Positions 44,155 through 62,231 of a stretch of DNA of 64,000 nt are shown piece after piece. Within the stretch, counting starts at the first letter, position 1. The number at the start of each line of letters is the position of its first letter. The notes below the pieces were generated by a model. That model did no database searches. It saw only the letters and a program-made list of their open reading frames with translations, and was not told the DNA's origin. Source of the DNA: Actinobacteria bacterium IMCC26207 (lineage in GTDB: Bacteria; Actinomycetota; Acidimicrobiia; Acidimicrobiales; Microtrichaceae); assembly GCA_001025035.1 (NCBI GenBank), contig LCZK01000008.1, forward strand, positions 1 to 64,000, in the 5' to 3' direction. The translations under genes and the position numbers were made by a program.

Positions 44155-45662
44155 AAGTAGCCATTGTTGGTGCTGGCTTAGGTGGACTTGCAGCAGCTTG
44201 TCACCTTGCAGGTAATGGCCACGATGTGACCGTGGTGGAGCGTGACCCTGCCCCTGGCGGGAGGGCGGGCCGATGGGAATCCAACGGCTACAGCTTCGAC
44301 ACCGGGCCGACAGTATTTACCATGGTGGAGTTTCTCGAGAGAACCTTCAATGCGGCTGGCGCCTCGGTAGAGGATCACGTCACCTTTGATCGCCTCGACC
44401 CTGGATACCGCGCCTGTTACGCAGACGGCTCCGAATTGTTTGTTCGCGCTGGCCGTGAGGCCATGACCGAAGAGATCCGCACAGTCTGTGGGGCACATGA
44501 CGCCGCAGCCTTCGGACCCTTTTGCGATTGGCTGACGGAACTCAACCGTGTTGAGGTTCCTAACTTTATTGATCGCAACTTCAACACCCCTTTCGACCTT
44601 GCCTCATCGCCGAAGGCGGGCATCGAACTGTTGCGCCTTGGCGGGTTTGGCAAGCTCGAAGCCAAAGTCAAAACCTTCTTTGACGACTACCGGCTGCATC
44701 GCCTGTTCTCCTTCCAAGCGCTCTATGCAGGCCTCTCCCCCTTTGACGCACTCGCTTTGTACGGCGTGATCACCTACATGGACACAGTCGCAGGAGTCTG
44801 GGCGCCACGCGGTGGAATCCATGCAGTCGCAACCGGTCTGGCCGAAGCCGCAGAAAAGGCGGGGGCACAGTTCCACTATGGGGATCCAGTGATTCGCATT
44901 GAGCGCCGTCCCGGCAGCGGCGAGGTGAGCGGAGTTCGCACAGCAGGCGGGCAACGATTCGAGGCCGATGTGGTGGTGGCGAATCCCGATGTTCCAGCGG
45001 TGTACCGAGAGCTTCTTTCGGCCACACCCCCTTGGCGTGCACGCACCGGCACCTACTCCCCCTCCTGCTTGTTATGGCTGGTTGGCGTAAAGGGAGACAT
45101 GCCTGAGCGGGCAGTGCACCACAACATTCACTTCAGTAAAGAGTGGACAGTGTCATTCGATGAGTTGCTCAAAAAGGGCACGATGATGACCGACCCATCG
45201 ATCCTTGTATCAGCACCTTCTGTGACTGACCCGAGCTGCGCACCCGCCGGTAGCAACACGCTCTATGTCTTGGAGCCAGTGCCAAATCTCGATGGCAAAG
45301 TTGACTGGTCTACTGAGCGCGTGCCAGCCCGTGATCGCCTAGCTGCACGAGTTGCGGCGCTGGGGTATCCAGAGGTCATTGAGTGCGAGCAACTCATTGA
45401 CCCGCTTGATTGGGATGCACTCGGCATGGAACGCGGGACTCCGTTTGCAATGGCGCATAAGTTCGCAAGGACTGGCCCCTTCCGTGCACCCAATATTGAT
45501 CGCAAGATTCCCGGTCTGGTTCTTGTCGGATCTGGAACTGTCCCCGGCGTTGGCGTACCAATGGTTCTGGTCTCTGGTCGTCTTGCAGCCGAGCGCGCCG
45601 AGGCCATGGCTGGTGCTGGAAGCCGAGGCAAAGCGGGCCGATCCGGGTCTGCAAGCAGGTGA
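44151..45662 (+). CDS. crtI: Phytoene desaturase (CrtI type)
   Basis: FAD enzyme converting phytoene to lycopene in four steps. FAD loop VAIVGAGLGGLAAACHLAGN, followed by GGRAGRWESNGYSFDTGPTVF, the membrane-contact region and the C-terminal signature LVLVGSGTVPGVGVPMVLVSG. Length 503 is typical. GTG start overlaps the crtE stop; its own stop overlaps the crtB GTG start. Confidence 0.95.
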   Translation: MKVAIVGAGLGGLAAACHLAGNGHDVTVVERDPAPGGRAGRWESNGYSFDTGPTVFTMVEFLERTFNAAGASVEDHVTFDRLDPGYRACYADGSELFVRAGREAMTEEIRTVCGAHDAAAFGPFCDWLTELNRVEVPNFIDRNFNTPFDLASSPKAGIELLRLGGFGKLEAKVKTFFDDYRLHRLFSFQALYAGLSPFDALALYGVITYMDTVAGVWAPRGGIHAVATGLAEAAEKAGAQFHYGDPVIRIERRPGSGEVSGVRTAGGQRFEADVVVANPDVPAVYRELLSATPPWRARTGTYSPSCLLWLVGVKGDMPERAVHHNIHFSKEWTVSFDELLKKGTMMTDPSILVSAPSVTDPSCAPAGSNTLYVLEPVPNLDGKVDWSTERVPARDRLAARVAALGYPEVIECEQLIDPLDWDALGMERGTPFAMAHKFARTGPFRAPNIDRKIPGLVLVGSGTVPGVGVPMVLVSGRLAAERAEAMAGAGSRGKAGRSGSASR

Positions 45663-46549
45663 CCACACTCGAGGCGAGCTACGCCGAGTGCAAGCGACTC
45701 AACCGCAAGTCGGGAACCACTTACTACTGGGCAACTCAGGTTCTGCCCGCCGTCAAACGTCATCATGTGCACGCGCTCTATGGGTTCTGCCGCTATGCCG
45801 ATGACATCGTGGACGATATGGGCCCGGCAAGCCCCGAGCAGAGAGCTGACGCTCTGGCCGCCTTCGGGGACAGCTTTTTTGCTGATCTAGATCGAGGTGA
45901 GTCTGATGACTTGGTCCTCAAGGCCGTGGTGCATACCGTCAAGGCCTTCTCCATTGACCCAGAGCTTTTCCACCGCTTCTTGAACTCCATGACCATGGAT
46001 CTGAGCGTGGATTCCTACGCCACTTGGGATGACCTCTGCGATTACATGGACGGCTCTGCCTGCGTGATCGGCGAGATGATGCTGCCCATTTTGGAGCCGG
46101 CTAGCCCAGCGGCGATTCCGCACGCTCGAGACTTGGGCCTGGCATTCCAACTGACGAATTTTCTGCGTGACGTGGGTGAAGATCTTGATCGCGGTCGGGT
46201 GTACATCCCTCAGGAAGACCTAGAGAAATTCGGCGCCGACCCACACCTGCGAAGGGTTACCCCGGAATGGCGAAATCTGATGCAGTTCGAGATTGAGCGC
46301 TCCAGAGAGCTCTACCTCTCTGCAGACCTTGGCGTAGCCGAACTGTACGGTTCCTCTGCTCGCTCAATTCGCGCTGCGCGAATTCTGTACTCAGAAATTC
46401 TGGATCACATCGAGGCGAACGAGTACGACGTGTTCAGTCAACGTGCTCGTGTGCCACTCATGCGCAAAGTAGCGGTAGCTACCGAGATGATTGTTCCTCT
46501 CGGACAGTTCTGGAATGCCCACGCTCCCGCAGCGCTTCGTCGGCACTGA
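45659..46549 (+). CDS. crtB: Phytoene synthase
   Basis: Condenses two geranylgeranyl diphosphates. The first Asp-rich motif is GFCRYADDIVDDMG, the second FLRDVGEDLDRGRVYIP. N-terminal KRLNRKSGTTYYWATQVLP is standard for CrtB. 296 residues. Last gene of the plus-strand operon; converges on crtZ. Confidence 0.95.
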   Translation: MTTLEASYAECKRLNRKSGTTYYWATQVLPAVKRHHVHALYGFCRYADDIVDDMGPASPEQRADALAAFGDSFFADLDRGESDDLVLKAVVHTVKAFSIDPELFHRFLNSMTMDLSVDSYATWDDLCDYMDGSACVIGEMMLPILEPASPAAIPHARDLGLAFQLTNFLRDVGEDLDRGRVYIPQEDLEKFGADPHLRRVTPEWRNLMQFEIERSRELYLSADLGVAELYGSSARSIRAARILYSEILDHIEANEYDVFSQRARVPLMRKVAVATEMIVPLGQFWNAHAPAALRRH

Positions 46550-46645
46550 GTTAGCGCTTCGCTGCCTCAGCGGCGAAACATCTGGCTGCTGAAGCTAACT
46601 GGCCGCCTGGGCTAACTTGCCGTTTGGGCTAACTGGCTGTTTGAG
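46550..46645. repeat. 17-bp degenerate tandem repeat between crtB and crtZ
   Basis: From 46595, three units CTAACTGGCCGCCTGGG, CTAACTTGCCGTTTGGG, CTAACTGGCTGTTTGAG lie head to tail across the crtZ stop codon (46629). No clean terminator hairpin is seen in the 80-bp gap. Confidence 0.7.
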
Positions 46646-47141
46646 CCGCTGCTGTTGGAGCGGCTGATGCAACGCGAATCGGGTCACGAGTCGTGCTCGC
46701 TGCACGCTCTCGAAGTGCAGCTGGAATCACCGGCGCCAACATGCCGTATGGCGCAGCGTTATAGAGGTGATGAATCCGGTGTGCCTCGCGAAGCGGCTCT
46801 AAGAACGCAACACGCTCGGGCAACACAGAAAGACGACGATGGATATAAAAGTCGTGAATCACCAAATAGGACATTCCGTAAGCAGTGATTCCGGCACCGA
46901 TTGCAATCAGAATGCTCAGCTGTGGTTGAAGCGCCCCGATAGCCATGATGGCAATCGTGGACCCCGCAAAGATAACCGGGAAAAAATCGTTCGCTTCCCA
47001 GCCCGTGCTACCGGGGCGGTGATGGCTGCGATGCAAAAAATGTCCAAACCCATGAAAGACCACGCGATGAGTTAGTGCAGTGACTGGCTCCATCACCAAA
47101 AAAGCAGCTACCGCCGCCAAGACCACAACAAGCACATTCAT
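46629..47141 (-). CDS. crtZ: Beta-carotene hydroxylase
   Basis: Membrane di-iron hydroxylase of 170 residues, adding 3-OH groups to beta-ionone rings. The histidine boxes are LTHRVVFHGF, HRSHHRPGS, VIHDFYIHRR and EAHRIHHLYN; four membrane helices lie between them. The Ala/Thr-rich tail after residue 150 is unconserved and partly repeat-encoded. ATG 47141 directly abuts the crtYd stop. Confidence 0.92.
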   Translation of the reverse strand: MNVLVVVLAAVAAFLVMEPVTALTHRVVFHGFGHFLHRSHHRPGSTGWEANDFFPVIFAGSTIAIMAIGALQPQLSILIAIGAGITAYGMSYLVIHDFYIHRRLSVLPERVAFLEPLREAHRIHHLYNAAPYGMLAPVIPAALRERAASTTRDPIRVASAAPTAAAQTAS

Positions 47142-47519
47142 CTATGCCTCACTTTCACTGACAGCCTCGCTGTCGGGTACCACGTTCTTGTTATTTAGTT
47201 CTACCGACTGAGTGGCTCTTCGGCCAAGTTGATCCCAGACCACCATCGTGAGGGTCACGAGCGCAAAGCCAAACCCAAAGTCCTCAAGAGGAGAATGAAA
47301 GAACACTCGGATGCCAGAGAACACATCGCTGTTGTAGTTCACGATGGGCGAAGAGGCCTTGGTCAACCAACCATCAACTAGCACCTGAAAGAACCCAACA
47401 ATTGCCATTGCAATCCAGTAGCTGCCTGTGCGAAAGATTCCCGTTCGAGCAATGAGCAACTCGTAGAGCACCACGAGCACCATGGCAAGAAGCGTGAGAA
47501 ACGTGTACGCACCCATCAT
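47142..47519 (-). CDS. crtYd: Lycopene cyclase subunit CrtYd-like
   Basis: A 125-residue three-helix membrane protein of the lycopene cyclase domain family, the C-terminal partner of the heterodimer. Key element is FHSPLEDFGFGFALVTLTMVVWDQL with the conserved Pro-Leu-Glu-Asp. The ATG overlaps the crtYc stop (ATGA). With CrtZ downstream, beta-cyclisation (CrtYcd) is likelier than the C50 CrtYef/LbtBC function, as no UbiA-type elongase is present. Confidence 0.88.
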   Translation of the reverse strand: MMGAYTFLTLLAMVLVVLYELLIARTGIFRTGSYWIAMAIVGFFQVLVDGWLTKASSPIVNYNSDVFSGIRVFFHSPLEDFGFGFALVTLTMVVWDQLGRRATQSVELNNKNVVPDSEAVSESEA

Positions 47520-50355: not shown

Positions 50356-50406
50356 GCGTCTGGAGCGGTTTTTCGACAGTATGTGTCGAAAAACCGCTCC
50401 AGACGC
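50356..50406. terminator. Long hairpin element, copy 1
   Basis: Perfect 23-bp arms around loop GTATG. The 35-bp core AGCGGTTTTTCGACA-GTATG-TGTCGAAAAACCGCT is identical in four copies. It lies in the 73-bp gap between two convergent stop codons, so it can act as a bidirectional terminator. The A/T runs lie inside the stem rather than after it, unlike a textbook terminator. Confidence 0.8.
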
Positions 50407-51966
50407 TCAGGTCACGCAGTTCAGAACGACGCTACTACCCGCGTTGCCTTCAGAATCGGTGGCCGTCGCTATGAGTGAGAACGTTTGCGATGGGTCATTG
50501 GGGCTGACGGTCGGGAACGTTGCTTTCCATGAACTGCTACTCCCAAACATTGAGGTTGAGCCTGAGCGACCAAACGTGCTCGTCCAGCTGAGGGTGACAG
50601 TCACCACGGTGGCAGCGCTTGTCACTCTGGCCACATAGACCTGATTACTACAACCAGTCAGAGCCCCAGAAAGCGTGACTTGGGGTGGCAGCACTGGCGG
50701 TGAAGTTGTCGGAGCTGCAGTAGTCGGAACTGCAGTTGCAGGAGGTGCAGTAGTCGGAACTGCGGTAACTGGAGGTGCAGTAACTGCTGAGGTCACCGTT
50801 GATGTGGTCGACTCGAGAATACTCACACCTCCCGCATCCAACATCGATGTTGTTGTCTGCACAGAACCCAACGAGGTATCCACCCTCGGCCAGAACAACA
50901 CAAACCCAGATCCGTCCGCATCTGGATCCCTCAAGTCGCTCGAAGCGCCCTCTGAACGAACAGCCGTGTCTGGTGGATCCAACAACACCGAACCACCTAG
51001 AACCAGCAACAACACAACAAGCACCGCGAGCCCCACAACGAGCGCCCGGCGTCGAGCAGCACCATCCGCTGGCGGGAAACCATCCCCCCGCCATGGCCGC
51101 CCACCCGCATGTGAACCACCCGCACCCGCTGCGGCACTGGCAAGGACACGCTTGCGAACCGAAATCGGAACCCCCAGCAACGGCGACGCACCCGCAACAC
51201 CAGACAGTACAAACGCAGGCACCTTCTTTCGCGACTGTTCACACACCTCACAAGAATCAACATGGCGATTCACCCGCTTACGCCACAGAACCGAAAACTC
51301 GCCATCCCAACTAGCCAAGACAGCAGCGAGTTCCTCGCAATCAGCTTGACCCCTACTGGCAATCAGCAAGGCCCCCAATGACTGGCCCACACGCTCCTTC
51401 ATCCGGAACGTCGCTAGGTGAGCCTTGCTTGGCGACACACCTAGTGCGCTTGCTAGGTCAGCGCCATCAATTCCCTGCAACACCAGTTCCAGCACCAGGC
51501 GATCACTGCTCTCTAACCCGGCCGAGGCCTGAGCAATTAGCTGTGCCAGCTCGGCCTGTTCCGCCGAGGCCTCAACTGATACCTCAACGATCGTCGACGA
51601 GGCATCAGCTGTGCGTAACGCTTCAAAGTCAGACATCTCAGATACCTCCTCACTCGCAACGGTGCGAGAGCCACGCCGGGTTTTCAAATACACCTGCCGG
51701 CGAGCAATAGCGAACAACCAAGGCTTCAAACGAGACGGATCACGAAGCTGACCCATGCGCTCAACCGCAACCAGAAACACATCACCGCACACATCCTCAG
51801 CCGCAGAACGATCAGCCAACATATGCGCACACATCGTGTACACCCGACTTGCGTAACGGTCATAGATCTCTGCCAGAGCCTGCTGATCACCCGCACAAAA
51901 ACGGCGCACTAATTCGGCGTCCTCAGCCGCAGCCTTCGTTGTACTCGCTTCTTGCTCAGCAGTCAT
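50407..51966 (-). CDS. Membrane-tethered ECF sigma factor with zinc-finger and Ig-like ectodomain (paralogue 1)
   Basis: One 519-residue chain. Residues 20-100 are sigma region 2 (LAEIYDRYASRVYTMCAHML, SRLKPWLFAIARRQVYLKTR). Residues 138-200 are region 4 with helix-turn-helix GADLASALGVSPSKAHLATF. Residues 210-245 hold C-x24-H-x3-C-x2-C (HVDSCEVC), as in zinc-finger anti-sigma proteins. Residues 308-329 are one membrane helix. A Thr/Pro/Ala stalk (390-428) leads to an Ig-like beta domain (430-519) with two cysteines. Sigma and anti-sigma/sensor parts are thus joined, so release probably needs proteolysis. AGGGAG lies 8 bp before ATG. Paralogue at 54873. Confidence 0.85.
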   Translation of the reverse strand: MTAEQEASTTKAAAEDAELVRRFCAGDQQALAEIYDRYASRVYTMCAHMLADRSAAEDVCGDVFLVAVERMGQLRDPSRLKPWLFAIARRQVYLKTRRGSRTVASEEVSEMSDFEALRTADASSTIVEVSVEASAEQAELAQLIAQASAGLESSDRLVLELVLQGIDGADLASALGVSPSKAHLATFRMKERVGQSLGALLIASRGQADCEELAAVLASWDGEFSVLWRKRVNRHVDSCEVCEQSRKKVPAFVLSGVAGASPLLGVPISVRKRVLASAAAGAGGSHAGGRPWRGDGFPPADGAARRRALVVGLAVLVVLLLVLGGSVLLDPPDTAVRSEGASSDLRDPDADGSGFVLFWPRVDTSLGSVQTTTSMLDAGGVSILESTTSTVTSAVTAPPVTAVPTTAPPATAVPTTAAPTTSPPVLPPQVTLSGALTGCSNQVYVARVTSAATVVTVTLSWTSTFGRSGSTSMFGSSSSWKATFPTVSPNDPSQTFSLIATATDSEGNAGSSVVLNCVT

Positions 51967-52016: not shown

Positions 52017-52067
52017 GCGCCTGCAGCGGTTTTTCGACAGTATGTGTCGAAAAACCGCTCAGGACGC
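52017..52067. terminator. Long hairpin element, copy 2
   Basis: Core 52025-52059 identical to copy 1; outer arm positions differ. It lies between the end of surface protein A and the start of sigma paralogue 1, both on the minus strand, so it separates two transcription units. Confidence 0.8.
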
Positions 52068-52077
52068 AAGACTCGGT

Positions 52078-52800
52078 TCAGGCAGCCCGACGGCTACGAA
52101 CCAGCCTGGCTACAACAAGCGCCGCAGCGCCAGCAAGCAACACACCGATACCTAAGAACAACAGCGTGGAGCTACTGCCTGTGAAGGCAAGGACACCAGC
52201 CGGCGTTGACTTCGAATCGGTCGCAGGAGGCGAATTTTGAGCCGTCTTATGCACTACCTCTTCGGAAGGAACATTGCTGCCAGTTGTAGATTCTGGAACG
52301 GTCGTCGAGGTCGTCGAGTTCGGCACCGTGGTTGTGGTGGTCTCCTCGGGGCAGGGCTGATAGAGCGGTAGCGCTGGGTCATTGCCGCAACCTGGTGAGC
52401 CTGTTGTGCTGGCATCCCTAGGCGGGTAGACCGGGTTCGGCGTATCGCCAGCAACGCGGACAAGCGGTGCGATGGGATCTGGGGCCTCTTCAGCTAGATG
52501 AAGGCAGCCATCACAGCCTTCGGCGTCACCCGCAGCAGGGTCATCTCCATCGTCATCCACGATGGCAACGGCAGGGGGGACCGTGGTTGTTGTGACCGTG
52601 GGCGTGGGCAAGTGTGGAAACGCTGGAAGTACGTAAACCGGGTCGAGAGTAAAGACGACTCCTGGCGGCACAGTTGGTGCAGGTTCTGCCGAGGCTGAAG
52701 CTGCGAATGGTCCAGCACCAAGGACCACAACTGCAGCAGTCGCTGCTAGGGCCGTCAGAGTGGCACAGCTTTGGTGGAATCGATTGCGAGAGATTTTCAT
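52078..52800 (-). CDS. LAFTG-anchored surface protein A
   Basis: Secreted protein with an N-terminal signal peptide (TALAATAAVVVLGAGPFAASASA), a Pro/Thr/Asp-rich body with TTTTTVP stalk blocks, a short cysteine module (GSPGCGNDPALPLYQPCPEE) and the wall-sorting end VLAFTGSSS, membrane helix, RSRRAA. LAxTG is the form used by class E sortases of Actinobacteria; no sortase gene is in the window. I set the start at the second ATG (MKIS, 52800), because it aligns with the start used by paralogue C and gives 8-bp spacing to AAGGAG; ATG 52806 gives only 2 bp. Confidence 0.8.
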   Translation of the reverse strand: MKISRNRFHQSCATLTALAATAAVVVLGAGPFAASASAEPAPTVPPGVVFTLDPVYVLPAFPHLPTPTVTTTTVPPAVAIVDDDGDDPAAGDAEGCDGCLHLAEEAPDPIAPLVRVAGDTPNPVYPPRDASTTGSPGCGNDPALPLYQPCPEETTTTTVPNSTTSTTVPESTTGSNVPSEEVVHKTAQNSPPATDSKSTPAGVLAFTGSSSTLLFLGIGVLLAGAAALVVARLVRSRRAA

Positions 52801-52900
52801 GTTCATAGCTCCTTGTGTCTGAGGAGGGGTTGTTCCCTCGTTCAGATGTCCAGAGCCAGGAGCGCTCAGAATCTTTCAGTTTTTTAGAAAAGATTTTGCA
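52801..52900 (-). promoter_or_regulatory. Conserved leader, copy A
   Basis: About 95 bp nearly identical to the leader of surface protein B and recognisable in two more genes. Shared blocks in gene direction: CTGAAAGATTCTGAGCGCTC, CTCTGGACATCTGA, GAGGGAACAACCCCTC (small hairpin), AAGGAGCT. It must contain promoter and/or 5' UTR signals. Confidence 0.75.
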
Positions 52901-52946: not shown

Positions 52947-53034
52947 ATGTATATAACCTGATGCAGCAGTTCACTAGTCCCGGTTGGCTTGTTCTGCTGC
53001 TAACACCAAACCCAACAACACATATGGAGTGATC

Positions 53035-53799
53035 ATGAAACACACCGTTCGAGTTCTGCTGCTTCTGGCAGTAACAACACTTGGGTTGTCGGCCCTCAGC
53101 GGATCAGCCTCCGCTACGACCTCGACGCCAAGGGCCATTGTGCCAAGTACTACCTGCTCAGGCAGTTTGGTGAGCATCGTGCTCAACGGACCAGGGGGCA
53201 GCAGCACCGCACCAACAGGATCGACAGTCGAAGTCCGGGGAAGGATCATCATGGCACCCGGTGCTGATCTTGGTCTGGGTGTAGATGAGTCAATCAGCAA
53301 CGTCATCGATTCAATCACCGCATCCCTAAATGGCGGCGCCGGGGTTGATGCCGAGGGCGAGGGCGGGTCGATCAGGGCCAGCCTGTCACCAATACAAACG
53401 GGAGAAAACACAATCACGGTGAAAGTCGACATCGACACAGGAGACGACGAAGAGGAACTTACCTGCAAGTTCAAGGTGACTGGGGTGAGTGAGACTCCCA
53501 CGACAACGCTTGTTCCCGTTGATGATGCCGCCACTGCCCCCACTGCAGACGTTTCCACTACAACCGTTCCGACCGCTACAACAGTTCCGGCTGCTGGCGC
53601 AGTTCCGACCGCTGCGGCCTCGGTGCAAGGTGCCTCTGCAACTTCCTCTGCCGCAACTCCTGCTGCGAGTCCGCAGAGCGAACTCGCATTCACCGGAAAG
53701 AGTTCCGTACCTCTCGGGCTACTCGGCTTAGCACTCGCACTACTCGGCGCTGGACTCCTGATGATCGAGCGTAAGCAACGAGTGAAGCAAGCGGCCTAG
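53035..53799 (+). CDS. LAFTG-anchored surface protein D
   Basis: A 254-residue protein on the opposite strand from its relatives. It has signal peptide VRVLLLLAVTTLGLSALSGSASA, then a beta-rich domain with one cysteine pair (STTCSGSLVSIVLNG to ELTCKFKVTG) rather than the Cys-module of A and B. A Thr/Ala/Pro stalk follows, and the end is SELAFTGKSS, a helix and MIERKQRVKQ. ATG 53035 (MKHTVRV) follows ATGGAGTGATC. The globular domain could bind a ligand. It shares only the anchor plan with A-C. Confidence 0.8.
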   Translation: MKHTVRVLLLLAVTTLGLSALSGSASATTSTPRAIVPSTTCSGSLVSIVLNGPGGSSTAPTGSTVEVRGRIIMAPGADLGLGVDESISNVIDSITASLNGGAGVDAEGEGGSIRASLSPIQTGENTITVKVDIDTGDDEEELTCKFKVTGVSETPTTTLVPVDDAATAPTADVSTTTVPTATTVPAAGAVPTAAASVQGASATSSAATPAASPQSELAFTGKSSVPLGLLGLALALLGAGLLMIERKQRVKQAA

Positions 53800-53813: not shown

Positions 53814-53864
53814 GCGTCCGGAGCGGTTTTTCGACAGTATGTGTCGAAAAACCGCTCCAAACGC
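53814..53864. terminator. Long hairpin element, copy 3
   Basis: Core 53822-53856 identical to the other copies. It fills the gap between the convergent ends of surface proteins D and B, fitting a bidirectional terminator. Confidence 0.8.
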
Positions 53865-53871
53865 AGGCGGG

Positions 53872-54696
53872 TCAGGCAACCCGACGGCTACGAACCAGCC
53901 TGGCTACAACAAGCACTGCAGCGCCCGCTAGCAGCACACCAACACCCAAGAACAACAAGGTGGAACTGCTACCCGTGAACGCAAGCACACCAGTCTTTTC
54001 TACAGTCTTTTCGACACTCTTGTCTTCAACGCTTACAGCTGGCACCGTGCTAGTGGTCGTTGATCCTGGAACAGTGGTTGTAGTTGTCGAGTCAGGCACC
54101 GTGGTTGTGGTGGTCTCCTCGGGGCAGGGCTGATAGACCGCTAGTGCTGGGTCGTTGCCGCACCCCGGTGAGCCTTGTGTGCCTGTTGGTCCTGGCACGG
54201 TCGTAGTGGTGGTCTCCTCGGGGCACGGTATCTCTTGTTGAAGATCGACATTGTCGCAAGGCCCTGGTTGCCATTCGGGGCGTTCCGTGGGCCCGCTACA
54301 GAACTTCTCACCGCAAGGAACCCCACCCTCATCAGGAACCCCACCCTCATCAGGAACCCCGCCGTAGGGGGACGGTTCTGCTTCCGAACCAGCGTCACCT
54401 CCGTCCGAGTCGACATCTCGGGGGTCGGGGCCGATAGTGCGTGGAGTCGCGCCTGGTGTGCCTGATCGACCGGTACCCGCTGCTGCGATGGTGGTTGTCG
54501 TGACAGTCGCTCGAGGAATAATCGGAGCAACGAAGTTCTCAGGAAGGTAGTAGTCATCTCGGGGCGAGCCAGGGTTAGGCGCCGCCGAGGCGGAAGATAC
54601 AAACGGGCCGACGCAGAGAACTGCCACTGCTGCGACCGAGGCACAAGCAGTAACCGTCCGGAGAACTTTCCGTGAGGTTCCAACAGAGATTTTCAT
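53872..54696 (-). CDS. LAFTG-anchored surface protein B
   Basis: Paralogue of A with the same plan: signal peptide (VTACASVAAVAVLCVGPFVSSASA), variable Asp/Gly/Pro body, cysteine modules, TTTTTVP stalks and an anchor almost identical to that of A (VLAFTGSSSTLLFLGVGVLL, then RSRRVA). The phrase PCPEETTTTTVP occurs twice. A three-unit GGVPDE repeat is encoded by an 18-bp tandem repeat near 54310-54362. Ends are conserved and the middle differs, which suggests module exchange or diversifying selection. Start MKIS at 54696 is chosen by the leader alignment. Confidence 0.8.
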   Translation of the reverse strand: MKISVGTSRKVLRTVTACASVAAVAVLCVGPFVSSASAAPNPGSPRDDYYLPENFVAPIIPRATVTTTTIAAAGTGRSGTPGATPRTIGPDPRDVDSDGGDAGSEAEPSPYGGVPDEGGVPDEGGVPCGEKFCSGPTERPEWQPGPCDNVDLQQEIPCPEETTTTTVPGPTGTQGSPGCGNDPALAVYQPCPEETTTTTVPDSTTTTTVPGSTTTSTVPAVSVEDKSVEKTVEKTGVLAFTGSSSTLLFLGVGVLLAGAAVLVVARLVRSRRVA

Positions 54697-54797
54697 GTTC
54701 ATAGCTCCTTGCTCTGAAGAGGGGTTGTTCCCTCGCTCAGATGTCCAGAGATAGGAGCGCTCAGAATCTTTCAGTTTTTAGAAAAAGATTTTCAGCG
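54697..54797 (-). promoter_or_regulatory. Conserved leader, copy B
   Basis: Nearly the same as leader A over about 95 bp, including CTGAAAGATTCTGAGCGCTC, CTCTGGACATCTGA, GAGGGAACAACCCCTC and AAGGAGCT. Confidence 0.75.
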
Positions 54798-54872: not shown

Positions 54873-56438
54873 TCAGCGCGTGCAGTTGAGCACTGCGCTG
54901 CTACCGGTGTTACCGGCGAGGTCTGTGGCTACAGCCACAAATCCGAAGCTGGTTGCAGTGGGCTGGGTCGAAGGATTGAATGATGCAACCCAGGTACTCC
55001 CAGCTCCTGACATGGGTACTGACCCCGAGGTTGCAACGTCACTAGTCCAATTGAGACTCACCGATGCAACCCCGACTGCGGAACTCACCGTTGCTGTATA
55101 TGGCGTGTCGCAACCGCTAGTGAACCCACTGAGTGAAACCTGGGGTGGCAGCGCTGGCGGTGCAGTGGTCGGAGCTGCTGTAGGCGGCACTGCGGTAGGC
55201 GGCACTGCTGTTGCAGGCGGTGCTGTTGCAGGCGGTGCGGTAATCGGAGGTGCAGTGACTGCTGAGGCAACCGTTGATGTGGTCGACTCGGGAATACTCA
55301 CACCTCCCGCATCCAACATCGATGTTGTTGTCTGCACAGAACCCAACGAGGTATCGACACGAGGCCAGAACAACACAAACCCAGACTCGTCCGCATCTGG
55401 ATCCCTCAATTCGCTCGAAGCACCCTCTGAACGAACAGCCGTGTCACCTGAATCCAACAACACCGAACCACCAAGAACCAACAACAACACAACAAGCACC
55501 GCGAGCCCCACAACGAGCGCCCGGCGTCGAGCAGCACCATCCGCTGGCGGGAAACCATCCCCACGCCATGGCCGCCCACCCACTGTGTTCCCAGCACTTG
55601 CAGTAGCACCCACTCCAGCACTTGCAAGAACACGTTTGCGAACCGAAATCGGAACCCCCAGCAACGGCGACGCACCCGCAACACCAGACAACACAAACGC
55701 AGGCACCTTCTTGCGCGAACGCTCACACACCTCACAAGAATCAACATGGCGATTCACCCGCTTACGCCACAACACAGAAAACTCACCATCCCAACTAGCC
55801 AACACAGCAGCGAGTTCCGGGCAATCCGCTTGACCCCGACTAGCAATGAGCAACGCCCCCAACGACTGGCCCACACGCTCCTTCATCCGGTGTGAGGCCT
55901 GGTGTGCGTTATTCGCCGAAACTCCCAGAGTGCTTGCCAAGTCAGCGCCATCAATTCCCTGCAACACCAGTTCCAGCACCAGGCGGTCACTGCTCTCCAA
56001 CCCAGCGGCAGCTTGAGCAATCAACTGCGCCAACTCAGCCTGCTCCGCCGAGGCCTCAACCATCGTCGAAGAGGAATCAGCTGTGCGTAACGCTTCAGAA
56101 TCAGACATCTCAGATACCTCCTCTACAAGAACTGATCGAGACTCACGGCGGGTTTTCAAATACACCTGCCGGCGAGCAATAGCGAACAACCAAGGCTTCA
56201 AACGAGACGGATCACGAAGCTGTCCAAGGCGCTCAACCGCAACAAGAAACACATCACCGCACACATCCTCAGCCGCTGAACGATCAGCCAACATATGCGC
56301 ACACATCGTGTACACCCGACTTGCGTAACGGTCATAGATCTCTGCCAGAGCCTGCTGATCACCCGCACAAAAACGGCGCACTAACTCGGCGTCCTCAGCC
56401 GAACCCACCGTTGTGCTTGTTACTTGCTCAGCAGCCAT
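54873..56438 (-). CDS. Membrane-tethered ECF sigma factor with zinc-finger and Ig-like ectodomain (paralogue 2)
   Basis: A 521-residue paralogue of the protein at 50407. The sigma regions, HVDSCEVC finger and membrane helix (RRRALVVGLAVLVVLLLVLG) are almost identical. The recognition helix differs slightly (GVSANNAHQASH against GVSPSKAHLATF), which could alter promoter choice. The stalk (APPATAVPPTAVPPTAAP) and the Ig-like domain have diverged most (GFTSGCDTPYTATVSSAVG), so signal recognition may differ. The leader next to the ATG is shared with paralogue 1. Surface protein B follows about 180 bp downstream on the same strand. Confidence 0.85.
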   Translation of the reverse strand: MAAEQVTSTTVGSAEDAELVRRFCAGDQQALAEIYDRYASRVYTMCAHMLADRSAAEDVCGDVFLVAVERLGQLRDPSRLKPWLFAIARRQVYLKTRRESRSVLVEEVSEMSDSEALRTADSSSTMVEASAEQAELAQLIAQAAAGLESSDRLVLELVLQGIDGADLASTLGVSANNAHQASHRMKERVGQSLGALLIASRGQADCPELAAVLASWDGEFSVLWRKRVNRHVDSCEVCERSRKKVPAFVLSGVAGASPLLGVPISVRKRVLASAGVGATASAGNTVGGRPWRGDGFPPADGAARRRALVVGLAVLVVLLLVLGGSVLLDSGDTAVRSEGASSELRDPDADESGFVLFWPRVDTSLGSVQTTTSMLDAGGVSIPESTTSTVASAVTAPPITAPPATAPPATAVPPTAVPPTAAPTTAPPALPPQVSLSGFTSGCDTPYTATVSSAVGVASVSLNWTSDVATSGSVPMSGAGSTWVASFNPSTQPTATSFGFVAVATDLAGNTGSSAVLNCTR

Positions 56439-56524: not shown

Positions 56525-56662
56525 CTACTTCATAGCTCGAAATCCCAAGATGACGGTCATGGTCGCAACTAGGCCGGCTGTTCGTGAACTGATCCAGCGA
56601 TACAGCTCCACGGCGATGCTGTCACTCATTGAATAGCTTGGGGGTGTATGGGAAAGATTCAT
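56525..56662 (-). CDS. 45-residue ORF under the shared leader
   Basis: Starts MNLSHTPP at the position where paralogue C starts MNLSLHS, behind the same AAGGAG leader, but then departs completely. A hydrophobic C-terminal stretch (TAGLVATMTVILGF) could span the membrane. Either a decayed surface-protein gene whose leader survives, or a small membrane peptide that would be coexpressed with the surface proteins. Confidence 0.4.
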   Translation of the reverse strand: MNLSHTPPSYSMSDSIAVELYRWISSRTAGLVATMTVILGFRAMK

Positions 56663-56755
56663 GTTCTTAGCTCCTTAGTAATGACGAGGGCTTGTGCCTT
56701 CGTTCAAGTGTCCAGAGCACCGAACCCACAGAACCTGACAACTTTTCGAACAAAT
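56663..56755 (-). promoter_or_regulatory. Conserved leader, copy of the small ORF
   Basis: Nearly identical to leader C (CTCTGGACACTTGAACGAAG, GCACAAGCCCTCGTCATTAC, AAGGAGCT) and related to leaders A/B. Confidence 0.75.
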
Positions 56756-56925: not shown

Positions 56926-57612
56926 TTAGGCCGTCCGAGGTTTCCGAACCAGCTTGGCTGCTACAAGTGCAACAGCACCGAGCAGCAACACTGCGAGACC
57001 TACGACCAACAGCGTGGAGTTGCTGCCAGTGAAGGCCAACACACCGGATTTCTCAGCAGTGTCATCCTTCACCTGCGGCGAGACCGTTGTAGTGGTCTGA
57101 GGCACCGAGGTGGTGGTAGTGGTGGTTGGGCATGGCGGGTAGTCGGCTCCGACAACTGGCCCACACGGAACCGTAGTAGGAACCGTTTCGGGGACGGTCG
57201 TGGTAGGGCCAGCAAGCGGGTTGGGGTCAGTTTGACCCTTAAGCGCCGCTGGAGTCGGGATTGAACTGGGGTCGGCGTGTGTGGGGTCTGGAACCGCTGC
57301 AGGTGTCGGGGCCGAGCTGGGGTCAGCAGGTGCAGGGTTTGGAACCGCTGCAGGTGTGGGAATTGAGGACGGATCAGCAACCTGTGGCAGTGGGATGCGA
57401 GCAAGGGTCCGGCTCGAGTATGTGGGGGCCTGGTCCATGTTGATCACCGGATCGGCCTCAGGTGCCTGATTCATGTTGATCACCGGATCAGGGTCAGTGA
57501 ATGGATCTGCTGACGCAACTGCTGCAAGCGGTCCAAAGCTCAACGCTCCGAGGCAAAGAACTGCTGCTGTTGCAACGAGGCCTCGATTGATGGAATGAAG
57601 TGAAAGATTCAT
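56926..57612 (-). CDS. LAFTG-anchored surface protein C
   Basis: A 228-residue relative of A and B. After signal peptide VATAAVLCLGALSFGPLAAVASA come two DPVINMNQAP-like units, then three 17-residue repeats of the type ADPSSIPTPAAVPNPAP, TTTVP stalks with PCGP and PPCPTTT, and the anchor VLAFTGSNS, helix, RKPRTA. The repeats would form an extended wall-spanning rod. Start is ATG 57612 behind AAGGAGCTACGAAC; the longer frame to 57657 runs into the leader. Confidence 0.8.
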   Translation of the reverse strand: MNLSLHSINRGLVATAAVLCLGALSFGPLAAVASADPFTDPDPVINMNQAPEADPVINMDQAPTYSSRTLARIPLPQVADPSSIPTPAAVPNPAPADPSSAPTPAAVPDPTHADPSSIPTPAALKGQTDPNPLAGPTTTVPETVPTTVPCGPVVGADYPPCPTTTTTTSVPQTTTTVSPQVKDDTAEKSGVLAFTGSNSTLLVVGLAVLLLGAVALVAAKLVRKPRTA

Positions 57613-57710
57613 GTTCGTAGCTCCTTGGTAATGACGAGGGCTTGTGCCTTCGTTCAAGTGTCCAGAGCACCGAACTCAGAAAACCTGACAACTTTTCGAA
57701 CAAGATTTCA
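57613..57710 (-). promoter_or_regulatory. Conserved leader, copy C
   Basis: Blocks CTCTGGACACTTGAACGAAG, GCACAAGCCCTCGTCATTAC and AAGGAGCT in gene direction. TGAAC-N15-CGTC inside it resembles an ECF promoter in spacing, but lies so close to the start codon that it could equally be an untranslated-region element. Confidence 0.7.
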
Positions 57711-57766: not shown

Positions 57767-57817
57767 GCGTCTGGAGCGGTTTTTCGACAGTATGTGTCGA
57801 AAAACCGCTGCAGACGC
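57767..57817. terminator. Long hairpin element, copy 4
   Basis: Core 57775-57809 identical to the other copies. It lies downstream of the stop codon of the minus-strand gene remnant at 57843-58007 and upstream of surface gene C. Confidence 0.8.
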
Positions 57818-57842
57818 GACTCAACCTTCCCCTCATGATCGA

Positions 57843-58296: not shown

Positions 58297-58329
58297 ATGC
58301 AGAAACGTTCGATTAGCGGTGCGCAATGA
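58297..58329 (+). CDS. Possible 10-codon leader peptide
   Basis: ATG at 58297 lies behind GGGGAGGGGATGAGGC and reads MQKRSISGAQ, then stop. Its TGA overlaps the ATG of the 1301-residue gene, which lacks its own ribosome site. This suggests translational coupling through a short leader. Confidence 0.35.
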   Translation: MQKRSISGAQ

Positions 58330-61300
58330 CTCCTGTTCAGGAAAACTTGGATGAGGGCGAGCTGACCACCAGATCACGCCAACCGATGGCCTACCTGTGG
58401 CCGGCACTTGCGCTGCTGGTACCAACCGCCTGCTACCTGAACTCCAACGGGAATGGTTTTCTCTATTTCCTAACAGGGGCTCTCCTGATGGTTCTCGCCA
58501 TCGCTGGACAGGGCCGAATGAATTGGGAACGATCTCTGGAGAACAGGACTCCGTTCGGGCGAGAAGCCTGGCTCCCCTTAAGCTACCTAGTGCTAGGGGC
58601 TCTGCTTGGCGTCTTCACGTCAAGAATGATCGCAGATGCTTTCTTCGGAAAGATCGGCATCATTTTATTCATTCTGGCGTTCTCCCTAGCGTCTGAGGGA
58701 ATCAGCCGGTCCGGCCTATTTACTTACCTCGCGTACCGAATCTCAGAGAACGCTAACGGATCTACACCTCGCCTCATTCTTTACCTTTTCCTCTTAGCCT
58801 CGTTCCTCACCGCTGTGACATCGAACGACATTGTGGTATTAGCGCTCACACCCATCGTTATGTCTGTTTGTGCACAAGCAAAAATAAAGAATCCAATCCT
58901 TATTCTTCTCTCCACATTTGTAGCAGCAAACACATTCTCGATGCTTCTGCTGATTGGTTCACCCACAAATATCATCATTTCAGAAGCTATAGGGCTCAAT
59001 GCTTTCACCTATTCCTTACTCATGATTGCTCCGGCACTACTTGCATTCCTTCTCACTTTCATCGTCATTTCAAAGGTCCTTGACCAGACCGAGAAGCGAG
59101 CGAATCTGACGCCAGTTGAAAGCGAAGACGTTTCCCTCAGAGAGAAATTCGGACTGATCCTACAAAGACGGGCAGTCCCAAGCAGTTGGACCATTCAGAA
59201 AACCTACGACATTCCTCGCTTCTCAACGTCTGAATCGATTACGCGGGAGATGAAGGAATGGGTCTGGCTCTTTGCATTGTCGGTCCTCGCTCTGTCAATT
59301 GTCTCCTTCAGAGAGGCGAGTTTAATCTGGTGCGCGACACCAATAGCGGTCGCCGCACTTGTCCTGAGTTCACGGCACCGGCGCAGGGAGGATGGCGACG
59401 AGACTCAACCCCTCACCGTGACACAGGAAATCCGAGCTGCTGGTGACATGCTTCGGGAAGTTCCCTGGGGGCTTCTATTTTTCGGAATTACCTTCTTCGT
59501 CGTTGCATCAGCCTTCGCCTCAACGGAATACTTTCAGACTGAAATCATTCATGCGGTGGGGAGTCTCATCTCCCACGGAGGGCCGTTCTCCATCGCGGCG
59601 GCCATAGTAGGTACGGCGACCGTTGTGAGCCTCTTCAATGACCTGCCAGCAGCAGCGTTATGTGGAGAGACTCTCCAGCAGCTCGATTTTGTGAACCCAT
59701 TCAACAGAGCGATGGCCACGGCGGGGATCTTGGTGGGTCTCAATATCGGGACCTACCTGTTCCCAACCGGAGCTCTTGCAGGACTCCTCTGGTTTCGGGT
59801 CATGCGGAAAGAGAGAGACAAGCTTGGGTCTGAAACTGACTCGGAATTTCTTCTTAATATACCGGCTAGATCTGACCTGATTCGATTTGGGTTTCTGGTC
59901 TTCATACCGGTCACCATCATCCTGAGTCTCTGTCTATTTGGAATAGTCGGAGCATTCTCATTCCTGCTCAGCAGTTGGACGGAACACTCACTGTTACTAA
60001 CTTCGCCTCTTAGTGCATGTATTTCACTGATTGGGCTTCTGATGTGCATCCTCACGGTTCGAGGATTCAGTACGGAACTCAAGAAGCGTGATATTTTCCT
60101 AAAACACTTTACACAGCTACTAACATTTCTAGACCGATCATATGAATGGTCAATGAAACACAGGGTCGCTTATATTCTTGCAATCTCGGGTGCCTTATTG
60201 GCGACTTCAGCCGTAATTTTATACTGGGTAGAGCGAGCACACAGCATTCTCTACACGCCCAATGAACAGACCTACTCATCCCCAAAACAGTTCGTTACTT
60301 GGCTAAGCACGATTTCTACGAGTGGATTTGATGACACATTTTTTCCTAACTCACTAGCCGGAGCCATGTTCGTAGGTCTTCTTCCGGTTGTAGGCGTGGC
60401 GCTTATCATCCAGTTGGTTAGAACTCCGGGCGGTGTCTATAGGGAAAAGTTGAGATCCAGAATTGCTAAGGGTGATGCTCTTTCCCATCGGACATTTATT
60501 ATTGGAAACTACCTCAGGGACAGGCAACTTATTGGCCTAATACATGATAGTTCAGACCGATTTATCGTCCTGCTCGATAGGTCGTCCGGCCACATCAAGA
60601 TGCCGGACAAGGAAGACGACACGGCAGATCGCCTTCACATCGTTGAAGGTAGGAACCTCCAAGCCGAGGAGATCGTGGCAAATTTCTCCCTTCTTGCGAC
60701 AAGTGAGATCTTGATCCTCGCTGATCCATCCGAGGATGCCGATCTGGAGAACCTTCTACTGCTCAAGGCGCTCAGCAATTCGATTCAGGCACAGCACCCG
60801 CAAATTCAGCGAATTCCGAATGTTCTCATCGAATGGTCTCGCCCTGAGATGGAAGAGAACCTTTCGGAATATCTAGATCCGCTAGTCATGGAGCGTCTGG
60901 GGAGCATTAGCGCTGCTGGGTCAGTTGGCGAGTGGGCTGCCGCTGAGATGGTCTCTCAGAGTGTCCTGACGGAGCGGCTCTGCGGAATCGGACCCCTGAC
61001 GGGAGATCCGGTGCCCGAACATTCAGCCTGGATTGACAGCAGAAGTTTCGCTGAGCGGGGATTCCGTTCGATTCCCCTTTCTGGGAAGCTAGCTGTGGGT
61101 TCTGGATCCCTGCTGAGTTCCGAACCAAAGTCCGCCCGGGAAAAGAAGGTGAAGTGGATTGCTGCGGCCTCTTCGGCAGCAGAAGTCAACCCATTCCTAG
61201 TGGTGGGACTCGGCCTTGAAATCGGGGGCACCGAAGTGGGACTTGGTTGCTCTGACCCTGGCTTTCTCAAGCGCTCAGCCTCGGCAAATTCACTTCTGGT

Positions 61301-62231
61301 TCTTGAGCAGCGCGAGTCAGCGCCCGCCCTAGCCGCAGAGACTGCTTCCCTAGGAGCCATACGAGTACATGTCGTCGGATATACCCAGACGGCCCGCGCT
61401 GCCATTGCGGCGCTGCGGAAACTTGAAGCTTCGGGGGTGACGCCCCAGATTGAAATCATTGCTCACGACACCAGAACGCCACGTCCCGAACCACAAGTTG
61501 CAGATCGAGTCCGTTTCGCCTTGCATGATGGCGAGAGTGAAATGGCAAGGGCTCTGACCAGTGCGTTCTCTCCGACCCAGGGCGAGTTGGACCTCCGCCC
61601 AGGTGACCGCCTCTTCATCTTCTCACCCGATGGCGAAGTACGACAGGCTGGGTTGTACAGCGCCAAGTTCGCCGGAAAGGTTCTGGAGGGATTGCGATCT
61701 AACGAGGGGTCAATAAGCGGTGCCGACCCGACCAATCACGCCTGCACCTCAAGCGAGATCCTGATCGCGGTCGAGTCAGCAGACCCATCGACGCGCTTCA
61801 TGCTGGAACACCTACAGGTGGACAAGATTCTCGACACGGGCAATATCCGTGCGTCTTGGCTAGCGAGGTGGACAGACATCTACTTCAAGGTGCCGTTGGA
61901 ACGAGCCAAGGATCTCGGCATCGTTGCGCCCAGTCAGAACTCGGCGTCAGATTTCCGCGATTCGATTGCCTATTCAAATCGTTTTCAATTCTTCTCAATT
62001 GTTCCGGCTAGTGAGCCCATTAGCGGAGTAGGTGTCACCGCCAGCAGAAAGTTTAGCGAAGTCGTCATATCGGTTCGCGAGAACTCGAGTCAATCGCAAC
62101 AACTACTTGGGATTGTGAGCCACAACCCGTCGAGTGGCACTCCGAGCGACGGGCATACGGCTCGAGTTGTCTGCGATCCCGACTATGTCATCACCGACAC
62201 AGACCGGTTGCTGCTAACCAGCATTCTCTAG
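58326..62231 (+). CDS. Permease-channel-RCK fusion protein
   Basis: A 1301-residue chimera. Residues about 20-500 look like a complete ArsB/NhaD-type ion transporter with about eleven helices: TSNDIVVLALTPIV and GSPTNIIISE in the first half, SLFNDLPAAALCG and GLNIGTYLFPTGALAGLLW in the second. Residues 520-600 add helices. Residues 614-697 look like a two-helix channel with pore loop FVTWLSTISTSGFDD, close to the TxGxGD filter. Residues about 715-900 and 1010-1150 resemble RCK/CASTOR-type nucleotide-binding domains (HRTFIIGNYL, IRVHVVGYTQTARAAI). Cation or anion specificity is unknown. Codon choice looks more AT-rich than neighbours, and flanking 110-bp repeats suggest insertion. No ribosome site of its own. 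Confidence 0.8.
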   Translation: MTPVQENLDEGELTTRSRQPMAYLWPALALLVPTACYLNSNGNGFLYFLTGALLMVLAIAGQGRMNWERSLENRTPFGREAWLPLSYLVLGALLGVFTSRMIADAFFGKIGIILFILAFSLASEGISRSGLFTYLAYRISENANGSTPRLILYLFLLASFLTAVTSNDIVVLALTPIVMSVCAQAKIKNPILILLSTFVAANTFSMLLLIGSPTNIIISEAIGLNAFTYSLLMIAPALLAFLLTFIVISKVLDQTEKRANLTPVESEDVSLREKFGLILQRRAVPSSWTIQKTYDIPRFSTSESITREMKEWVWLFALSVLALSIVSFREASLIWCATPIAVAALVLSSRHRRREDGDETQPLTVTQEIRAAGDMLREVPWGLLFFGITFFVVASAFASTEYFQTEIIHAVGSLISHGGPFSIAAAIVGTATVVSLFNDLPAAALCGETLQQLDFVNPFNRAMATAGILVGLNIGTYLFPTGALAGLLWFRVMRKERDKLGSETDSEFLLNIPARSDLIRFGFLVFIPVTIILSLCLFGIVGAFSFLLSSWTEHSLLLTSPLSACISLIGLLMCILTVRGFSTELKKRDIFLKHFTQLLTFLDRSYEWSMKHRVAYILAISGALLATSAVILYWVERAHSILYTPNEQTYSSPKQFVTWLSTISTSGFDDTFFPNSLAGAMFVGLLPVVGVALIIQLVRTPGGVYREKLRSRIAKGDALSHRTFIIGNYLRDRQLIGLIHDSSDRFIVLLDRSSGHIKMPDKEDDTADRLHIVEGRNLQAEEIVANFSLLATSEILILADPSEDADLENLLLLKALSNSIQAQHPQIQRIPNVLIEWSRPEMEENLSEYLDPLVMERLGSISAAGSVGEWAAAEMVSQSVLTERLCGIGPLTGDPVPEHSAWIDSRSFAERGFRSIPLSGKLAVGSGSLLSSEPKSAREKKVKWIAAASSAAEVNPFLVVGLGLEIGGTEVGLGCSDPGFLKRSASANSLLVLEQRESAPALAAETASLGAIRVHVVGYTQTARAAIAALRKLEASGVTPQIEIIAHDTRTPRPEPQVADRVRFALHDGESEMARALTSAFSPTQGELDLRPGDRLFIFSPDGEVRQAGLYSAKFAGKVLEGLRSNEGSISGADPTNHACTSSEILIAVESADPSTRFMLEHLQVDKILDTGNIRASWLARWTDIYFKVPLERAKDLGIVAPSQNSASDFRDSIAYSNRFQFFSIVPASEPISGVGVTASRKFSEVVISVRENSSQSQQLLGIVSHNPSSGTPSDGHTARVVCDPDYVITDTDRLLLTSIL

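Follow-up and report, generated by a model that had tools for sequence, protein, structure and literature searches.

The window analysed here, a stretch of 64,000 nucleotides from the 3.3-Mb, 10-contig genome of Actinobacteria bacterium IMCC26207, contains two genes of the same layout, sigB and sigA, that encode ECF sigma factors predicted to be tethered to the membrane. Four genes for LAFTG-anchored surface proteins and one short ORF lie between or beside them, and four copies of a promoter-like element precede genes of this group. The features are as follows.

50407..51966, minus strand: sigB, membrane-tethered ECF sigma factor, 519 amino acids (intact ORF, ATG start)
52078..52806, minus strand: class-1 gene for a LAFTG-anchored surface protein, lying upstream of sigB
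52850..52883, minus strand: class-1 promoter-like element, ACTGAAAG-N16-GCTCTGG
52984..53799, plus strand: LAFTG-anchored surface protein gene without a promoter element
53872..54702, minus strand: class-1 LAFTG-anchored surface protein gene
54745..54778, minus strand: class-1 promoter-like element, ACTGAAAG-N16-TCTCTGG
54873..56438, minus strand: sigA, paralogous tethered sigma factor, 521 amino acids, diverged in the Ig domain and region 4.2
56525..56662, minus strand: short ORF of about 45 amino acids with a hydrophobic C-terminal part and a class-2 element, directly upstream of sigA
56712..56746, minus strand: class-2 promoter-like element, GTTGTCAG-N16-GCTCTGG
56926..57612, minus strand: class-2 gene for a LAFTG-anchored surface protein (the ATG that follows AAGGAGC was assigned as start by reading the sequence)
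57662..57696, minus strand: class-2 promoter-like element, GTTGTCAG-N16-GCTCTGG

The locus and its surface-protein genes

Judged by pattern, the neighbouring proteins end in LAFTG, a transmembrane helix and an R/K tail, which is the arrangement of sortase-anchored proteins (an LPXTG-like pentapeptide, a transmembrane helix and a basic tail), and the genome encodes a class E sortase that scores above its cut-off as well as two further sortases. NCBIfam anchor models scored the LAFTG proteins below cut-off. The short ORF shares its leader with the class-2 gene and could be the remnant of a surface-protein gene. Elsewhere in the genome, a gene for an RseP-type site-2 protease (TIGR00054, above cut-off) lies between dxr and ispG.

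Four near-identical palindromes of 23-24 bp, with the sequence GAGCGGTTTTTCGACA-GTATG-TGTCGAAAAACCGCTC, occur at 50356-50406, 52017-52067, 53814-53864 and 57767-57818, and an extra copy with one mismatch is found on contig C4. They are not claimed as classic terminators because no T-run follows the stem. Since one of them sits between sigB and the adjacent class-1 gene, co-transcription of these two genes is uncertain. Further out in the window, a 1301-residue ORF at 58326-62231 on the plus strand has a CitMHS/ArsB-type transporter domain at residues 89-448 only, the other 850 residues being without explanation. A phytoene synthase gene (SQS_PSY) lies at 45659-46549 on the plus strand, and is followed by ORFs, including the region at 46629-47519 on the minus strand, that by eye resemble a carotenoid hydroxylase and a lycopene cyclase.

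Architecture of sigB

A preliminary description of the window had proposed that sigB joins ECF regions 2 and 4, an H-x3-C-x2-C finger, a single membrane helix, a Pro/Thr stalk and a two-cysteine beta domain in one polypeptide. Prediction of the whole chain with AlphaFold2 (AF2), from an alignment of 41 sequences, agrees with that layout, and the parts are likewise fused in homologues. All segments are on the minus strand.

51661..51924, minus strand: region 2, residues 15-102 (Pfam PF04542 and AF2 helices)
51343..51588, minus strand: region 4, residues 127-208 (AF2; Pfam Sigma70_r4_2 in homologues)
51403..51432, minus strand: region 4.2 recognition helix, residues 179-188, PSKAHLATFR (diverged from ANNAHQASHR in sigA)
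51121..51342, minus strand: zinc anti-sigma-like domain, residues 209-282 (invariant ligands and AF2 helices)
50983..51042, minus strand: single transmembrane helix, about residues 309-328 (hydropathy; AF2 helix 301-324)
50686..50982, minus strand: extracytoplasmic stalk, its distal part Pro/Thr-rich (sequence; much of it has pLDDT below 50)
50410..50685, minus strand: Ig-like sensor domain with two cysteines, residues 428-519 (AF2 and Foldseek)

The N-terminal part has sigma2 and sigma4 only, in the ECF arrangement. It matches the sigma70-ECF model TIGR02937 with 55.4 bits (cut-off 42.9), region 2 is recognised by Pfam Sigma70_r2 (PF04542, E=2e-9), and Foldseek matches this half of the protein to the ECF sigma factors AlgU, SigE and SigW. 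Region 4 is below the Pfam threshold in both sigA and sigB; of 22 homologues, 19 have a Sigma70_r4_2 match, and AF2 predicts a helical sigma4 for sigB. By coverage, the nearest solved sigma folds are those of anti-sigma-bound SigW, with TMt 0.62-0.64, and CnrH, with 0.69, and ECF sigma factors bound to RNA polymerase reach only 0.38-0.46.

The zinc domain begins about two residues past sigma4. The finger proposed earlier is present, but its first ligand, C210, had been overlooked: the full motif is C210-x24-H235-x3-C239-x2-C242, and all four ligands are invariant in the 41-sequence alignment. Class I zinc anti-sigma domains are defined by a three-helix bundle with an Hx3Cx2C motif, together with a fourth helix for binding sigma2 (PMC7406223). 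The sigB domain has the motif and predicted helices in matching positions (211-219, 226-248, 251-259 and, as the fourth, 268-282), which makes it a candidate member of this class. As Pfam zf-HC2 gave no match in the domain, its identity rests on motif conservation and the AF2 model.

A conserved GFPP juxtamembrane motif precedes the transmembrane helix. Beyond the membrane, AF2 predicts a disordered Pro/Thr stalk over about residues 328-413, followed at the C-terminus by a beta-sandwich (residues 429-518, pLDDT about 95) which resembles Ig, FnIII and CBM56-like folds in Foldseek and carries two cysteines, C439 and C517, each conserved in at least 90% of aligned sequences. An alignment-free fold of the ectodomain alone had low confidence (pLDDT 58.6) and was set aside.

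Distribution of the family

A sister species (G004) carries both sigA and sigB; one of its two sigma contigs is represented by a MAG record (L029). Among 80 related loci from named genomes, 79 retain the motif C-x24-RH-x3-C-x2-C, and these loci generally encode one clear transmembrane helix and an extension. Most of the ectodomains have exactly two cysteines and an Ig-like strand pattern at the end, and some consist only of a Pro-rich tail. Core residues of sigma2 and sigma4 are invariant across the family, which in the tree spans Acidimicrobiia, Mycobacteriaceae, Nocardioidaceae, Pseudonocardiaceae and Jiangellaceae. The family profile gives about 300 bits for the best Mycobacterium-like genomes and about 155 or less for fused sigma factors from presumed Streptomyces. 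A phylum-wide profile search gave matches in 251 of 396 genomes, which are not taken as tethered sigma factors because many align over sigma2-sigma4 only. A plasmid search gave no match reaching 60% identity.

Of 17 other loci that belong to the Microthrixaceae clade, 14 have a gene for a protein with a C-terminal membrane anchor directly upstream of the sigma factor gene, and one further locus (L030) has it downstream. Within the 701 kb of loci L029-L108, every LAxTG signal found is no more than about 350 bp away from a sigma factor gene.

Other tandem pairs of tethered sigma factors occur in different subclades of the same family, at L022 (G024) and L188 (G748), the latter with an LAFTG gene that has its own TGTCAG element in between. 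In an Ilumatobacteraceae subclade (L064-L067, L074, L075, L083 and L088), the tethered sigma factor gene is preceded by one that encodes what looks by eye like the C-terminus of an apolipoprotein N-acyltransferase. Three loci titled as Bifidobacterium breve MAGs are probably mislabelled: L043 and L047 fall among Acidimicrobiia, and L087 falls among Mycobacteriaceae.

Of 10 more distant fused sigma factors examined from presumed Streptomyces, 6 carry a CAP domain outside the membrane (L149 and L153-L157, from G423, G211, G354, G143, G162 and G221), and another (L158) has an AbfB domain there. The inner half of the proteins is conserved and the outer sensor is variable.

A promoter-like element associated with the tethered sigma factors

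The two class-1 genes and the class-2 gene share a leader with the short ORF; this leader is present in four copies in the genome, all at this locus. Each leader contains the bipartite element, with TGAAAG at the two class-1 sites and TGTCAG at the two class-2 sites; further matches to the element in the genome are at control level. Comparison with Rfam gave no known RNA element in the leaders at E values up to 1. In other species the element AAAAGTGTCAG-N16-GCTC is common to the upstream regions of anchored genes. Its general form is [T/C]GNNAG-N16-[G/A]CTC, located upstream of a sigma factor gene or of a gene for a membrane-anchored surface protein that immediately precedes the sigma factor gene. 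The form with a 16-nt spacer is present in 21 of 91 upstream regions, counted on the same loci on which the element was discovered before testing, while each other spacer length from 8 to 26 nt occurs zero to two times and dinucleotide shuffles of the 91 regions contain a mean of 0.1 elements. In an Ilumatobacteraceae-type clade the element precedes the sigma factor gene itself by 55-90 nt, as expected if these sigma factors regulate their own synthesis. Many distant relatives, including Mycobacteriaceae, show no such element.

Divergence of sigA and sigB

Comparison of the two paralogues in the window genome and in the sister species indicates which parts of the proteins have been kept apart. 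The Ig domains of sigA and sigB are about 50% identical, with fourfold sites saturated, yet each shares 88-94% identity with its orthologue in the sister species. Differences fixed between the A and B copies number 33 of 89 positions in the Ig domain and 0 of 72 in the transmembrane helix and proximal stalk; within the sigma domain they fall at 7 of 22 positions in region 4.2 and at 4 of 182 in the rest (p=1.6e-5). The fixed differences concentrate in the sensor and the DNA-reading helix, which are therefore the parts held distinct. The region 4.2 differences are maintained between species within each copy, and synonymous sites are more diverged than the protein. The transmembrane helix and stalk of the two copies are nearly identical in the window genome, where fourfold identity between the copies in the proximal stalk is 86% versus 32% in the sister species, a pattern that indicates homogenisation of the shared body by gene conversion in the window lineage.

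The diverged recognition helix can be set against the two classes of element: sigA has Q184 and H187 and is proposed to read class 2 (TGTCAG), and sigB has L184 and F187 and is proposed to read class 1 (TGAAAG). Across the family, residues 184 and 187 track the -35 sequence as it can be read upstream of these genes. TGTCAG accompanies 12 of 13 sigma factors with Q184 and H187, the exception being L030 (TGCGAG), and none of 18 others, counts that come from the same related, non-independent loci from which the rule was derived. Phylogenetically independent pairs on supported branches were concordant in three of three cases (p=0.25; three pairs cannot reach significance). The rule was fixed in writing before new genomes were read. 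Among the new loci whose element was usable and close to the start of the sigma factor gene, six were predicted to be 'not C' and had G or A, with G in three of them whereas the rule as written said A; the one informative locus predicted to have C had TGTCAG, recognised only on re-inspection and with a spacer of 15 nt. The fresh loci support the rule and do not amount to proof of it.

A model for the locus and its alternatives

The sequences show the architecture, the predicted folds, conservation and gene linkage, the element with its restriction to this locus, and the association of the recognition helix with the -35 sequence; the promoter function of the element and its reading by these sigma factors, cis inhibition, proteolysis and the nature of the signal are inferred. 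In the favoured model, each sigma factor is a single-pass protein whose zinc anti-sigma domain would inhibit it in cis, and the Ig-like sensor, held outside the cell on its stalk, would detect a surface signal, probably a wall or surface partner that binds or is lost. The protein would then be cut outside the membrane and subsequently within it, with the RseP-type protease whose gene lies between dxr and ispG as a candidate for the second cut. The cytosolic remnant would also have to shed or unfold its zinc domain, because a cut in the membrane leaves that domain attached to the sigma factor. Once freed, the sigma factor would direct transcription from [T/C]GNNAG-N16-[G/A]CTC promoters of its own operon and the adjacent genes for anchored surface proteins, with sigA acting at TGTCAG and sigB at TGAAAG promoters, so that two sensor-to-promoter channels may operate at one locus. 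This model of cis-inhibited sigma factors, surface-triggered cleavage and two channels is considered reasonably probable. Its most complete version is more tentative, a possibility somewhat short of an even chance: a full two-channel switch in which a homogenised body bears distinct sensors and helices, promoters and surface proteins are matched to each, and two helix residues set the -35 sequence.

Activation may instead proceed without cleavage. Ligand binding or loss of zinc might reshape the zinc domain of an uncut, autoinhibited protein, so that the sigma factor works from the membrane or becomes exposed there, and some anti-sigma zinc fingers, such as that of RsrA, are reported to switch without proteolysis (PMC4960319). 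An outside sensor, a single transmembrane helix and a long disordered stalk are better suited to cleavage, however, the genome has an RseP-type gene, and the comparable fusion IutY is activated through RseP (PMC8999054); an uncut switch is accordingly judged unlikely. It is also rather unlikely that the leader merely survives from duplication of the surface genes, or serves another sigma factor, while the tethered proteins act on unrelated targets. The four leaders do belong to related genes, and the element is promoter-like in sequence, but with its fixed 16-nt spacer it recurs in distant clades, precedes unrelated surface proteins and the sigma factor genes themselves, and tracks the region 4.2 residues.

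The sub-threshold Pfam scores for region 4 in both copies might suggest decayed sigma factors that now serve only as surface or structural proteins. This is very improbable given the family-wide invariance of the sigma2/sigma4 core, the preservation of region 4.2 differences between species within each copy, and the excess of synonymous over protein divergence. The objection raised in the preliminary description, that the halves might be separate genes fused by an assembly or gene-calling artefact, fails and has a negligible probability: the same fusion is present in both copies and in two species, independent assemblies show it in 79 of 80 loci, and a local artefact was ruled out on these grounds. 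The other objection in that description, that the N-terminal part might lack a sigma fold, fails as well, since this part is predicted to fold as a sigma factor.

Relationship to known tethered sigma factors

The preliminary description treated the tethered architecture as unusual, but it is of a recognised kind; that account of the architecture otherwise holds, and the paralogue, the surface-protein genes and the promoter elements were absent from it. In the ECF48, ECF52 and ECF53 groups of Actinobacteria, a sigma factor is joined to a zinc anti-sigma domain, with one or two transmembrane helices and an extracytoplasmic extension, and proteolytic release has been proposed as the model for their activation (PMC8999054). 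The view in the preliminary description that a tethered sigma factor would need cleavage is reasonable and agrees with this model. Like them, sigB fuses a zinc-finger anti-sigma-like domain and one transmembrane helix to its C-terminal side. The example protein for ECF48 is mycobacterial (reference WP_048473130.1), and Mycobacteriaceae homologues fall inside the family tree. ECF52 proteins have a carbohydrate-binding domain, whereas the sensor of sigB is Ig-like; sigB has a stalk, but Pfam shows no carbohydrate-binding family in the protein. As far as published descriptions of the three groups go, sigB and sigA are further set apart by the linked genes for anchored surface proteins, the TGNNAG-N16-CTC element, and the tandem arrangement in which sensor and -35 helix have co-diverged.

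Streptomyces coelicolor SCO4117, an ECF52 member for which autoregulation has been proposed, resembles sigB in its sigma factor, zinc finger, transmembrane helix, Pro-rich stalk and extracellular module, but has a carbohydrate-binding module (smart00776) and a different reported motif, CSGYN-17-SRHA, and its regulon is pleiotropic, in contrast to the local set of four sites described here (PMC5826349). IutY of Pseudomonas putida (ECF243) is likewise a sigma factor fused to a membrane anti-sigma factor, is activated by intramembrane proteolysis through RseP, and is the only tethered sigma factor that the review consulted names as experimentally worked out; unlike sigB it belongs to Gram-negative iron-starvation cell-surface signalling, and no Ig-like sensor is described for it (PMC8999054). 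ECF41 sigma factors also have a fused C-terminal regulatory domain but lack the membrane tether and zinc finger, and their -10 sequence is CGTC. Their -35 sequence of TGTCACA, spacer of 16 +/- 1 nt and single local target operon give the shape of the element and the local regulon a precedent (PMC3426412).

The tethered architecture is thus already known, and the matched promoters and the link to surface proteins look new; no published description of the Ig-sensor family, its promoter or its surface-protein link was found in a search whose scope stopped short of the key ECF classification papers. In Clostridium thermocellum, the SigI/RsgI systems link a surface-sensing module across the membrane to a sigma factor, but the sigma and anti-sigma factors are separate proteins, unlike in sigB.

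Tethered ECF sigma factors have long been proposed, yet little is known of their promoters and signals. The family described here offers a candidate promoter as well as a class of targets, the anchored surface proteins. As a natural pair that differs mainly in the sensor and the DNA-reading helix, sigA and sigB make the sensor-to-output specificity and the promoter choice of tethered sigma factors directly testable, and they could supply orthogonal sigma factor/promoter pairs.
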